The translations under genes were made by a program, and so were the position numbers. The notes under the pieces were generated by a model. That model was not told where the DNA came from, did no database searches, and was given only the letters and a program-made list of their open reading frames with translations. Shown here piece after piece: positions 3,092 to 19,938 of a stretch of DNA of 21,460 bases. How positions within the stretch are numbered: position 1 is the first letter of the stretch; each line of letters opens with the position of its first letter. Source of the DNA: a virus; IMG/VR virus record IMGVR_UViG_3300037228_000005, positions 1-21,460 of that record; one strand, written 5' to 3'.

Positions 3092-3173
3092 CGCGCTTCT
3101 CCTTTACAGCAGGGACGTGTCTATCGCCCTGCGGGGCAAATCTTTGGGACTTATATACTTGAGTCCCTTTCAT
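3063..3173 (-). CDS. Possible 36-residue peptide gene
   Basis: A short frame starts with ATG overlapping the methyltransferase stop (ATGA), has GGAG five nt upstream, and overlaps the next gene by 29 nt. The peptide (MKGTQVYKSQRFAPQGDRHV...) is basic with no recognisable motif. Codons 2-10 lie within the left 27-bp inverted repeat. Coupling and ribosome-site spacing favour translation, but the length is too small to be sure. Confidence 0.35.
   Translation of the reverse strand: MKGTQVYKSQRFAPQGDRHVPAVKEKRDGPTPISRL
3143..3169 (-). repeat. Left copy of 27-bp inverted repeat flanking the methyltransferase
   Basis: Read on the - strand this matches the + strand at 3779-3805 at 25 of 27 positions. 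It includes an uninterrupted 16-bp shared core, GTATATAAGTCCCAAA. It ends exactly one base before the last base of the methyltransferase stop codon. The inner part is itself an imperfect palindrome, GGGACT (3146-3151) and AGTCCC (3162-3167). Confidence 0.85.
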
Positions 3174-3769
3174 ACAAACTCCATCACTTCCTGCGCCATC
3201 CGCTTCGCGGCAATCTCGCAGTATTTCTCTTCCCGTTCGATCCCGACCGCAGTCAACCCTGCGTCCTTCGCAGCGCGCAGCGTTGTTCCGCTGCCCATGA
3301 AAGGGTCGATGACGCTCTTTGCGTTTGGAGCAAACGATAGGCACCACTTCATCAACGGCAGCGGCTTTTCGGTAGGATGCTCCTTCATGTAGGAGGTGAC
3401 GCTATACCGAAACATTTTCGCTGGGCCGTCCAGATTCGTCCATGCTATCTCGATCATCGAAGTTGAAAAGTCTTCAGGCTGCCTTTTGTCCCACGCCAGA
3501 AATCTTTGATGTGCTGGCAGAGCAAAGTAATTTCCGCCCCACACAATCGCTTCTTTTGCTTTGCCTATGCACGATTCAAGTAATGTGGGTTCGACAACTG
3601 CATCATCCCAGTCCTTCTTCTCGTGCGCTTGGCGAATTGGGTTAGACGCTATGCCGATGCCATACGGAGGATCAGTCAGCAACAGGTCGAACCGGCCCAA
3701 CTTAGGCAAAATCTCACGGCTGTCACCGTGATAGATGGATATGCCGCCGAACTCGAAATATGGCTTCAT
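3170..3769 (-). CDS. DNA N6-adenine or N4-cytosine methyltransferase
   Basis: This 199-residue SAM-dependent DNA methyltransferase has its motifs in the beta-class order. Motif IV DPPYGIG comes first (catalytic DPPY 33-36). HPTEKP follows at 131-136 and motif I FMGSGTT at 157-163, with GIEREEKYCEIA as motif II. The target-recognition region (about 45-125) is short. No cognate restriction endonuclease is evident, so it is probably an orphan enzyme that modifies phage DNA against host restriction, although an HNH nuclease gene lies directly upstream. Its ATG overlaps the HNH stop (ATGA). The coding region is bracketed almost exactly by 27-bp inverted repeats, unlike any other gene here, which hints at cassette-like acquisition or inversion. 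Confidence 0.9.
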   Translation of the reverse strand: MKPYFEFGGISIYHGDSREILPKLGRFDLLLTDPPYGIGIASNPIRQAHEKKDWDDAVVEPTLLESCIGKAKEAIVWGGNYFALPAHQRFLAWDKRQPEDFSTSMIEIAWTNLDGPAKMFRYSVTSYMKEHPTEKPLPLMKWCLSFAPNAKSVIDPFMGSGTTLRAAKDAGLTAVGIEREEKYCEIAAKRMAQEVMEFV

Positions 3770-7633: not shown

Positions 7634-7855
7634 ATGGACGTTGCAGCGATGGTTCTCAAGATACGGGGCGACCGCACACAAGAGCAGTTCGCCGCCGACC
7701 TTGGATGCTCACGGCAGTCTGTGGTGTGGTGGGAGACGGGCCGATTCAAGCCCGGCAAAGCGATGCTCCTGAAACTCGGAATCTCGGTTCACTATGAAGA
7801 TGGAAACCCCAATTCGGAGCGCACCGTTGAGCGAGGCGAGTATGCCCAAGACTGA
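7634..7855 (+). CDS. Cro/CI-like helix-turn-helix regulator
   Basis: This is a 73-residue protein consisting essentially of one XRE-family HTH. TQEQFAADLGCSRQSVVWWE at about residues 15-34 gives helices 2 and 3, with TGRFKPGKAMLLKLGI completing the fold. There is no cleavage or dimerisation domain, so it is Cro-like in size. It diverges from the leftward early operon across a perfect 17-bp palindrome overlapping both promoters, which suggests it represses early transcription and possibly its own. It is followed by two small frames and a methyltransferase in the same direction. Confidence 0.8.
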   Translation: MDVAAMVLKIRGDRTQEQFAADLGCSRQSVVWWETGRFKPGKAMLLKLGISVHYEDGNPNSERTVERGEYAQD

Positions 7856-17153: not shown

Positions 17154-18407
17154 ATGGCAGATGTACTCGACCAAATTGACCAGACGACCGATAGCGACCT
17201 CGACGTAGGAACGCAGGATGATGTGGCAGATTCCAGCCAAGCGGATTCCGGCACCGAGCATCAAGAAACCCAACAGCAGACGGAAGCCGACAAGGTTGAT
17301 GGCCGTCGCTTCAACCCTGAATGGTCGAAAGCCCTCAAGGAACTCCGCGAACTCTATCCGGACCGCGCCGACATGCTCACGAAGTTGCGGGACAACTACG
17401 CCCGCTATCAGGCGTTACAGGAGGTGGCTCCCAAGGGTCTGGATGATGTGCGCCAATGGAAGACGACGCTGGACGCGCTGGGCGGCTCCGAGGCCGCTGC
17501 GGAGCTCATGCAGCGGGACGCGGACATGCGGGAGATTGATTCACGTATCGAAGCTGGGGATTATGGGGTCATCGGTGAACTGACACCGGAGTGGCAGAAG
17601 GGTTTCTACCAGATGTTACCCGACGCTCTGACTGATCTGAGCGAGAAAGACCCGGCAGCATTCTCAGCCGCAGTTGCTCCACATTTTCAGGCCGCATTGC
17701 TTGGGACGGGGATGGGCGACCACCTCAAGAAGATGTATGCGGCGGCCGGAGACAATGAACCGCTCAAGGAACTCATCAAGCAGCAGTACGACTGGTTTCA
17801 ATCTCAGACGCAGGGCAAAGGAGAGATGTCGGGCGGGAAGAAGACTGTTAGCCCGGAAGTGCAGCGGCTCCAGACTGAACTAGATTCCCGGCGCAAGGCA
17901 GATGACGAGGCATTCACTGGGCGCATCACGGACGATACCAACAAATACGTCGAGGAGACGTTCGAGAAACATGCTGCTGTCTATCTCAAGCAATTCAATC
18001 TCACCGATGCCCAGAAGTCCGACCTGAGCGATTCATTCGCGGCGAAGCTGGTGGACAAACTAGGGGCTGACTCTGCGTTCCAGAAGCAATTGGGAGCCTA
18101 CAAGTCGCTCAAGAATCGCAGTCCTGAGACGGTCAACAACTACATCCGCGCGAAGATTGACGAGAATGCCAAGCCTATTCTTGACGGCCTTGTGACCGCC
18201 CGATATGGCGGTATGCGGAAGGCAAAACCTGCTGTGGATGCTGGAACCAAGACCACAGACAACGGCGCAGTGCGGGTAGCGCAAGCTCCCGACCAAAGCC
18301 AGTGGGACATGGGCAAAATGGAAGCTGCTGGGTATGAAGCGACGGTAAAAAGGGGGATTTTCTACCTGCAAGGCAATCGGACGGTGCAATTGGCGCGACC
18401 GAATTAG
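17154..18407 (+). CDS. Probable scaffolding protein
   Basis: This is a 417-residue protein with AAGGAG eight nt before ATG. The N-terminal 50 residues are highly acidic and polar (DQIDQTTDSDLDVGTQDD), and the rest is almost entirely helical with charged heptads (KALKELRELYPDRADMLTKL, then PEVQRLQTELDSRRKADDEA). There are no cysteines or enzymatic motifs. That composition, and the location between portal and capsid genes, fit a scaffolding protein that shapes the prohead and is then released. The assignment rests on position and composition. Confidence 0.65.
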   Translation: MADVLDQIDQTTDSDLDVGTQDDVADSSQADSGTEHQETQQQTEADKVDGRRFNPEWSKALKELRELYPDRADMLTKLRDNYARYQALQEVAPKGLDDVRQWKTTLDALGGSEAAAELMQRDADMREIDSRIEAGDYGVIGELTPEWQKGFYQMLPDALTDLSEKDPAAFSAAVAPHFQAALLGTGMGDHLKKMYAAAGDNEPLKELIKQQYDWFQSQTQGKGEMSGGKKTVSPEVQRLQTELDSRRKADDEAFTGRITDDTNKYVEETFEKHAAVYLKQFNLTDAQKSDLSDSFAAKLVDKLGADSAFQKQLGAYKSLKNRSPETVNNYIRAKIDENAKPILDGLVTARYGGMRKAKPAVDAGTKTTDNGAVRVAQAPDQSQWDMGKMEAAGYEATVKRGIFYLQGNRTVQLARPN

Positions 18408-18497
18408 ACACCTGTGGTACATTGTTTGAAAGAACTGGGGTTCGCCTAGCAGTCCTCTTGACCGGAGACAATCTGCAAGCGGCGTAAAACTACCAAG

Positions 18498-18560
18498 CCC
18501 TCGGTGAATAGCGGGAAGACTCGCTCACACGCAGCGTTAGCGTGAAATTCACTTCGAGGG
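18498..18560 (+). ncRNA. Three-way-junction RNA in the capsid gene leader
   Basis: The leader just before the capsid start folds into three helices. P1 pairs CCCTCGGTGAAT (18498-18509) with ATTCAC (18547-18552) and CGAGGG (18555-18560), 12 pairs with a UU bulge. P2 pairs 18510-18515 with 18520-18525, closing an AAGA tetraloop. P3 pairs CACGC (18528-18532) with GCGTG (18540-18544) around a 7-nt loop. The only good ribosome site, GAGG at 18556-18559, lies in the 3' strand of P1 and would be hidden. I see no hammerhead core (no CUGANGA). It is probably a translational control element; homology is not testable here. Confidence 0.5.
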
Positions 18561-18567
18561 TAGGCCA

Positions 18568-19938
18568 ATGGCCGGAGCAATTTCGGAAACAGCGGTTGAA
18601 GGCGTAGAGGTTGAAGTCTGGGCCGACAACGAACTCAAGAATTATCAGCCGTTCTTCATGGGCCTCTACAACAAGCTCGTTAAGAACGGAGCGAAGAAAG
18701 TCCCTGTCGGCTTCATCACGTCAGGCGGCGGCATTCAGCGTGGCGCGTTCCGCGCCGGATTCCGGGCACAGGGCGGCGGCAACTTCACTGCATTGGCCCT
18801 CTCGACACCGGGCTCCATTCCGCCCATCCCGCGCGGTACGGCGTCCACTTACGATTCGTTCGCGGCAACGCCATTCCAGTACCTTGGCGTGACCGAGATC
18901 GCGTCCGACGCCATCGCTGCGGTTGCTGGCGGTCGCGGCAAGATCAAGCTGCCCTCGTCTGAGATGGAGTATTCGTCAGACTCCTTCATGAACGATATGG
19001 AAGGGCTGATCTATGGCGATGCGTCGGGCACCATTGATACCATTCCTTCCACTGGCACCGTCAACAACGCAACGGGTGGCGGAACGATTGGCACCCCGAC
19101 CTATTCCAGCATCCTCGGAGTCAACGCGGCCCTGTTCACCGACCAGATGGTTGTGCAGGTCTTCTCTGCGGTCGGCGGAACGAATCGTGGGTCGTTCACC
19201 ATCAGCTTCACCGATCCCGTTGTGCCGGTCATCTACTCGACCACGGCTCTCCCGGCAGGCACGACCACGGGCGATATTCTGGTGATCCAGGCGGGCACTG
19301 GCGCGGCTGGGTCGGCAGTCTACGGCCTGAAATACTGGTACAAGAACGGCAACGGTGGGACGCAGGCTGGAATTACCAAGGCCAACTATCCCGGTCGCCT
19401 CTCGACGCCCACCCTGAACGCCAATGGTCAGTCTCTGCCGCCCTCTGTGGCTGCGAAGATCGAAGCCATCCGCATGAGGGCATCGGGCGACAAGAACTAC
19501 ATGCAGAACGATAAGGGAGCGTTCTGGTATGTTAACCCCGCACAGGGCGCGCAGTTCGCCTCCGACTTCTACAACAAGTACACCCCGACCTATGACCTGA
19601 GCGGCAAGGACAACGTCCCCGACCTTGCCAAGGGGATGCAGAAGACCTTCCTCGGCGAGGATTGCCTTTGGTCTACGACTTGCGACATGACCCGCGCAGA
19701 TCGTGTTCGGGCCAAGGACTTCATCATCGGCGAGGCGTACACGATGCGCCTCAAGGACTTCGGCGAAGGTCTGACTATCGTTCCCGTTCCCGCGCAGGCT
19801 GGCGGTTATGGGACTGGCTGGACATACCTCAATTCCAAGATGTTCGCATGGGAGCAGGCGTTGAACATGATTTGCGTCGATCCCAAGAGCGGCTTCTACA
19901 TTTCGAGCCTGCCCACCGTGAGCCTCACCACTGTCTAA
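18568..19938 (+). CDS. Major capsid protein
   Basis: This is a 456-residue protein with the length and order expected of the major capsid protein, directly after the scaffold-like gene. The N-terminal arm (ADNELKNYQPFFMGLYNKLV) is followed by GGGIQRGAFRAGFRAQGGGN and Ala/Gly-rich strands, the usual style of HK97-fold shell proteins. Residues about 148-265 are Thr/Ser/Gly-rich with beta-strand patterning and look like an inserted surface domain. The C-terminal part (NVPDLAKGMQKTFLGEDCLW, then YTMRLKDFGEGLTIVP) returns to shell-like sequence. The leader contains a structured RNA that covers its ribosome site, and a hairpin follows the gene. Confidence 0.8.
   Translation: MAGAISETAVEGVEVEVWADNELKNYQPFFMGLYNKLVKNGAKKVPVGFITSGGGIQRGAFRAGFRAQGGGNFTALALSTPGSIPPIPRGTASTYDSFAATPFQYLGVTEIASDAIAAVAGGRGKIKLPSSEMEYSSDSFMNDMEGLIYGDASGTIDTIPSTGTVNNATGGGTIGTPTYSSILGVNAALFTDQMVVQVFSAVGGTNRGSFTISFTDPVVPVIYSTTALPAGTTTGDILVIQAGTGAAGSAVYGLKYWYKNGNGGTQAGITKANYPGRLSTPTLNANGQSLPPSVAAKIEAIRMRASGDKNYMQNDKGAFWYVNPAQGAQFASDFYNKYTPTYDLSGKDNVPDLAKGMQKTFLGEDCLWSTTCDMTRADRVRAKDFIIGEAYTMRLKDFGEGLTIVPVPAQAGGYGTGWTYLNSKMFAWEQALNMICVDPKSGFYISSLPTVSLTTV

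Follow-up and report, generated by a model that had tools for sequence, protein, structure and literature searches.

The capsid locus and its leader fold

The window, by which we mean the whole stretch of viral DNA analyzed here (21,460 nucleotides, positions 1 to 21,460 of IMG/VR record IMGVR_UViG_3300037228_000005), carries a gene for a 456-aa protein preceded by a 417-aa ORF that follows a portal-like gene and can be called a scaffold gene by position only (Table 1). The 456-aa product has no match in Pfam, PHROGs or isolate phages, and no PHROG or Pfam hit of the 417-aa ORF passed the cut-off. An AlphaFold2 model of the 456-aa protein built on 37 relatives (pTM 0.67, mean pLDDT 66.5) was compared with the PDB using Foldseek and matched HK97-fold phage capsids, with phage SU10 as the best match (E 1.4e-9) and HK97 itself at 5.4e-6. 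The predicted structure thus supports what the initial annotation had assumed, that the gene 3' of the leader encodes an HK97-fold major capsid protein. Relatives of this capsid in bacterial genome data come from Acidobacteriota MAGs only, one of them labelled Granulicella, and because of this restriction soil Acidobacteriota are probably the host group of these uncultured tailed phages, an assignment that is suggestive and short of proof for the phage of the window. Elsewhere in the window lie a DNA methyltransferase gene (3170-3769, minus strand; phrog_67, E 2.7e-37) and a gene for a small transcriptional-regulator-like protein (7634-7855, plus strand; phrog_8, E 2.3e-6).

Table 1. Coordinates of features at the capsid locus, numbered from the first nucleotide of the window
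Feature	Positions	Strand	Basis
417-aa ORF after the portal-like and before the capsid gene, scaffold judged from position only	17154-18407	+	ORF list
Promoter-like box TAGACA-N7-TACATT; TGTGG precedes the second hexamer	18408-18423 (TGTGN-type part 18413-18423)	+	Pattern scan
P1 5' strand, anti-Shine-Dalgarno strand (CCCUCG 18498-18503, GUGAAU 18504-18509)	18498-18509	+	Minimum-energy fold; pair probability 0.96; compensatory changes in relatives
P2 hairpin AGCGGG-AAGA-CUCGCU (strands 18510-18515/18520-18525)	18510-18525	+	Minimum-energy fold; both-sided changes in 4 of 6 pairs
GAC in P2 loop, putative counterpart of the GAGAC of relatives	18518-18520	+	Alignment; motif identity inferred
P3 hairpin CACGC-AGCGUUA-GCGUG (strands 18528-18532/18540-18544, 5 pairs)	18528-18544	+	Minimum-energy fold; pair probability; relatives
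P1 3' strand (AUUCAC 18547-18552, UU bulge 18553-18554, CGAGGG 18555-18560)	18547-18560	+	Minimum-energy fold; pair probability; compensatory changes
Shine-Dalgarno GAGG inside P1 3' strand	18556-18559	+	Probability unpaired ~0; opening cost 8.7-9.2 kcal/mol
Major capsid protein gene, 456 aa, predicted HK97 fold	18568-19938	+	AlphaFold2 and Foldseek

The RNA at 18498-18560 folds into a three-way junction that is both the minimum-energy and the centroid structure (-30.9 kcal/mol), in which P1 (12 pairs, CCCUCG/CGAGGG plus GUGAAU/AUUCAC, with a UU bulge), P2 (6 pairs, one of them G-U) and P3 are joined by the linkers CA (18526-18527) and AA (18545-18546). Mean pair probability is 0.96-0.98 per helix, and the pairing is nearly unchanged when as much as 400 nt of flanking sequence is added or the temperature is set to 20 C. 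Energy folding therefore reproduces to the base the three nested helices and two 2-nt linkers described in the initial annotation. The Shine-Dalgarno (SD) sequence GAGG, located 8 nt before the ATG at 18568, is held in the 3' strand of P1, as had been proposed; the fold, the opening cost and the relatives all bear this out. An equally good energy was reached by 2 of 200 shuffled sequences (z -3.05), and a z of -3 taken singly is only suggestive; this modest value is what speaks for a chance fold, or for a DNA-level inverted repeat devoid of RNA function, a reading that we regard as barely credible given the comparative evidence below, which carries the fold well beyond chance.

Searches of Rfam 15 returned no match at the gathering score in the window, and the leaders of relatives yielded only a tRNA, in L025; the best sub-threshold score was 10.3 bits against a cut-off of 47.9, and no match appeared even at E 1. 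This agrees with the earlier remark that no named motif has this layout. The L025 hit is a tRNA-Thr (CGT) gene at 2715-2786 of that contig, located in the scaffold-capsid gap directly upstream of the capsid leader. A small-molecule riboswitch would be compatible with the compact junction and its recurrent unpaired bases, and SD sequestration is a usual riboswitch output, but the window leader matches no Rfam riboswitch, the unpaired bases that are conserved form a short, variable core (GAC/GAGAC) and a capsid gene offers no metabolic logic, so we hold this explanation to be very unlikely. The literature search, which lay largely outside subscription journals, found no description of such leaders at capsid genes.

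Conservation of the leader among relatives

The group to which the window belongs (group A) comprises nine IMG/VR contigs with capsids that are 88-90% identical, whereas the window leader is only 48-53% identical to those of L002, L007 and L001 across about 160 nt. Three of the four distinct leader types in this group (window, L002-type and L007) fold singly into the same junction with GAGG ending P1, and the fourth, L001, forms the same junction with a P2 of just two pairs. A covariance model trained on L002, L003 and L006 only, and thus without the window, recovered the window leader at 18497-18561 (E 1.4e-5) and L007 (2.4e-6) in a search space of 352 kb, with L001 weak at 0.11. The remaining matches at E <=10 were only training-type leaders and their own reverse complements, the latter a by-product of palindromic helices. 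A DNA-pattern scan for further group A leaders returned nothing beyond the L007 contig, already known, and unrelated sites.

Structural alignments of the leaders were taken from the covariance models because MAFFT misaligns P1. In the group A alignment 100% of cells pair and 11 of 25 pairs are changed on both sides, a count reached by none of 500 shuffles; slid alignments are 24-48% paired with 0-2 doubly changed pairs. This alignment is model-fitted and holds four distinct rows with L001 left out, so that statements on single pairs need care, yet the whole compensatory pattern, as judged from the aligned sequences, would be hard to obtain otherwise despite the few rows. The alignment contains 10 G-U cells and no A-C cells, and therefore selection acts on the plus-strand RNA. 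We reject a DNA-level inverted repeat on the same ground, G-U pairs being kept in group A and likewise in group B (8 G-U versus 2 A-C cells). Together with the covariation, the recovery of leaders by the models, the SD-opening controls described below and the lack of a terminator, this refutes in the main the chance fold and the inverted repeat.

A natural swap is seen in L007 and L008, whose capsid genes share 97.7% identity over the 5' half and 94.4% further downstream, whereas their leaders are just 55% identical and identity begins again at the SD. The contrast implies that a leader cassette was replaced while the fold and the SD burial were kept. Exchange of leaders among near-identical capsids is not what tight co-evolution of leader and capsid protein would predict.

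Profile scans reach capsid relatives down to 33% identity, and in the distant relatives (33-48% capsid identity) the plan is mostly kept with other helices: P1 carries the SD on its 3' side, and a GAGAC usually lies by the junction. In group B (for example L051, L052, L056 and L059) the SD is placed in P1 (GAAUCC/GGAUUC), followed by a second helix, a GAGAC or GACAC bulge and P3; P2 is absent as a helix and reduced to the GAGAC-bearing bulge. The group B model, R3, matched 11 leaders and nothing else at E <=0.01, and in its alignment 96.9% of cells are paired and 13 of 22 pairs are changed on both sides, against none of 500 shuffles. Covariation in homologous leaders, the check that the initial annotation had asked for, is thus present in both groups. 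Group C (L029, L030 and L033) has P1 as CCUUCC(GG)/(CC)GGAAGG, a P2 loop with AGAGAC, plus P3. Group E (L037, L106 and L108-L111) forms a three-way junction closed by UUCUCCA/UGGAGAA; the helices of its modelled members (L106, L108, L109 and L111) are invariant, and covariation there is neutral either way. The SD is thus predicted to be buried in the same way by four different sequence solutions. GAGAC precedes the capsid gene in 37 of the 50 leaders, most often between -43 and -60, compared with 12.5% of length-matched random windows; this motif and an SD located in P1 are what most of the family has in common. The three-way junction put forward in the initial annotation is real and conserved in the group of the window, but as a description of the family it was too narrow, being only one form, since a large related group has a GAGAC bulge in place of P2. 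We rejected GAGAC as an SD mimic that pairs with the anti-SD arm, which by eye fits group E and not groups A or B.

Further elements were observed in some leaders. About 100-180 nt before the capsid start, L025-L030 and L033 share a recurrent CGAG-N8-CUCG-UUAAA-CGCG that could be an H-type pseudoknot, in which loop and tail, by eye, seem to covary (CGC/GCG, CAC/GUG, AGC/GCU). About 60-110 nt before the capsid start, group B leaders (for example L052, L053 and L047) show a CCGG...CCGG repeat, UAUAAAU and a short UAA-loop hairpin abutting P1, and the structured leader of this group may extend beyond the part studied.

The helix lengths bear on a processing site, at which RNase III or another enzyme would cleave a long helix and free the SD. 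A stack of P1 with either P2 or P3 would run to about 17-18 pairs, enough for RNase III, but the group E P1 has 7 pairs and its P2 may have 3, which is short for this enzyme, and we consider processing of this kind decidedly unlikely. The covariance models give one match per record, sited at the capsid gene. phi29 pRNA is a phage three-way-junction packaging RNA, but it is a trans-acting component of the motor, whereas the window leader is tied in cis to the capsid SD and matches no Rfam family; on account of this fixed place and the single match per record we reject a pRNA-like element.

Burial of the capsid SD and its place on the transcript

On the same loci and by one procedure, the median cost of opening the SD is 7.0 kcal/mol for capsid genes (n=47) and 2.0 kcal/mol for other genes (n=214; Mann-Whitney p 3e-17), in a family whose members are not phylogenetically independent and with control genes chosen mechanically by ORF and SD. 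Under the same reservations, the median unpaired probability of the SD is 0.23 for capsid genes versus 0.54 for other genes, the capsid SD has the highest opening cost on its locus in 37 of 47 cases and the leaders fold with a mean z of -2.1 versus -0.24 for random pieces. In five leaders (L027, L028, L035, L063 and L122) the SD is weakly or not buried. SD burial is special to the capsid gene on these loci, and the SD is paired in a stable, conserved fold, the structural feature expected of SD-sequestering leaders, in which folding would lower translation and opening of P1 would relieve it.

The main rival to a regulated leader is a passive attenuator or mRNA stabilizer, which would fix the initiation rate or protect the 5' end with no signal or bound factor. 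It would be favored by opening costs that, in many members and irrespective of GC or AT richness, cluster about 7 kcal/mol, as if strength were tuned, and by the interchangeability of leaders between capsids. A plain hairpin would suffice for either task, however, and the branched fold kept in several groups, as well as GAGAC, would be left unexplained. We rate this reading as a genuine, though lesser, possibility.

A TGTGNTATRAT-like box lies upstream of the leader in 15 of 50 cases (the window and 14 others) compared with 1.6% of random 250-nt windows, an enrichment somewhat flattered by the pattern having been written after these leaders were viewed. The box often has TTGACA 7-8 nt before the second hexamer, a spacing shorter than that of ordinary sigma-70 promoters, and a plain sigma-70 scan of the leader region returned no promoter. 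In the window, the putative promoter box would place the start of the mRNA near 18430, with the whole fold included, which suggests that the structure belongs to the capsid gene's own mRNA. Plain translational coupling to the upstream gene was rejected, as the stop codon of the 417-aa ORF (18407) is too far away, 90 nt before P1; in relatives the gap between the upstream ORF and the capsid start is 113-557 nt. A small ORF within the leader might still provide coupling. An intrinsic terminator or attenuator, sought as a GC stem followed by a U run, does not occur at 18100-18700.

The position of the box also bears on timing of the kind known from T4 gene e, in which long upstream transcripts bury the SD and a late promoter inside the structure yields an mRNA lacking the 5' arm (PMC3014915). 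The precedent is close, as the T4 genes e, soc, 49 and I-TevI have the SD and/or start codon paired in an RNA helix, which reduces binding of the 30S subunit (PMC3014915), and SD burial in a phage mRNA is common to these genes and the window leader. The T4 cases are simple stems on lysis or homing endonuclease genes, however, whereas the window has a branched fold at a major capsid gene. Its promoter-like box, like those of the 14 other leaders, is upstream of P1, so that the mRNA would keep the whole fold, and compensatory changes extend to P2 and P3, helices that such a device would not need. Timing by this route is therefore unlikely.

Proposed mode of action and significance

By computation, P1 pairs with the capsid SD, and selection has preserved this pairing despite sequence turnover. 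We consider it probable that the leader acts in cis to control translation of the capsid mRNA, a reading that takes in gating by P1 and, more weakly, contact with a trans-acting factor. In the folded state the 30S subunit would be kept off the capsid start, and capsid output would be set by the frequency with which P1 opens. A phage needs its capsid protein in large amounts, which makes a strong and lasting block improbable and calls for some form of relief. GAGAC, or GAC in the window, beside the junction may be the contact for a trans-acting factor, perhaps most likely a phage-encoded protein, that could clamp or open the junction and in this way might time capsid synthesis or match it to assembly. 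Such protein-mediated control of leader opening is our favored guess. The more specific proposal of an operator, at which a phage assembly protein, such as the capsid or scaffold protein, would bind GAGAC/GAC and fit capsid synthesis to head assembly, we offer tentatively, as the less probable course.

Translational control of this type exists elsewhere. The uS15 (rpsO) operators of B. stearothermophilus and T. thermophilus contain a leader three-way junction whose stabilization may block ribosome binding (PMC8470358), and the three-helix junction is common to these operators and the window leader; theirs is a ribosomal-protein gene with a known protein ligand, whereas ours is a capsid gene, and we found no sequence relation. 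In T4 and RB69, gp43 and gp32 bind structured leaders that overlap their own ribosome-binding sites (PMC3014915), which is the mode proposed for the window leader, where binding is putative; we claim no sequence relation, and these operators are hairpins or pseudoknots on genes for replication proteins, unlike the three-way junction and capsid gene of the window.

Our best reading is that the leader represents a new RNA family of SD-sequestering leaders, a kind already known, at an unusual gene. Leaders that hide the SD have been described before, but in the sources searched we found none that is conserved and devoted to the major capsid gene of a tailed DNA phage. This family is kept over 33-90% capsid identity, in phages that have no cultured member in the collections searched. 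It is a candidate new Rfam family, and P1 with the SD, GAGAC and P3 provide a sequence handle for finding further members. For such phages the leader is a defined, testable element for the timing or dosing of shell production, and if the operator reading is true, it would mean that the major capsid gene in tailed DNA phages is under feedback control via a conserved RNA switch.
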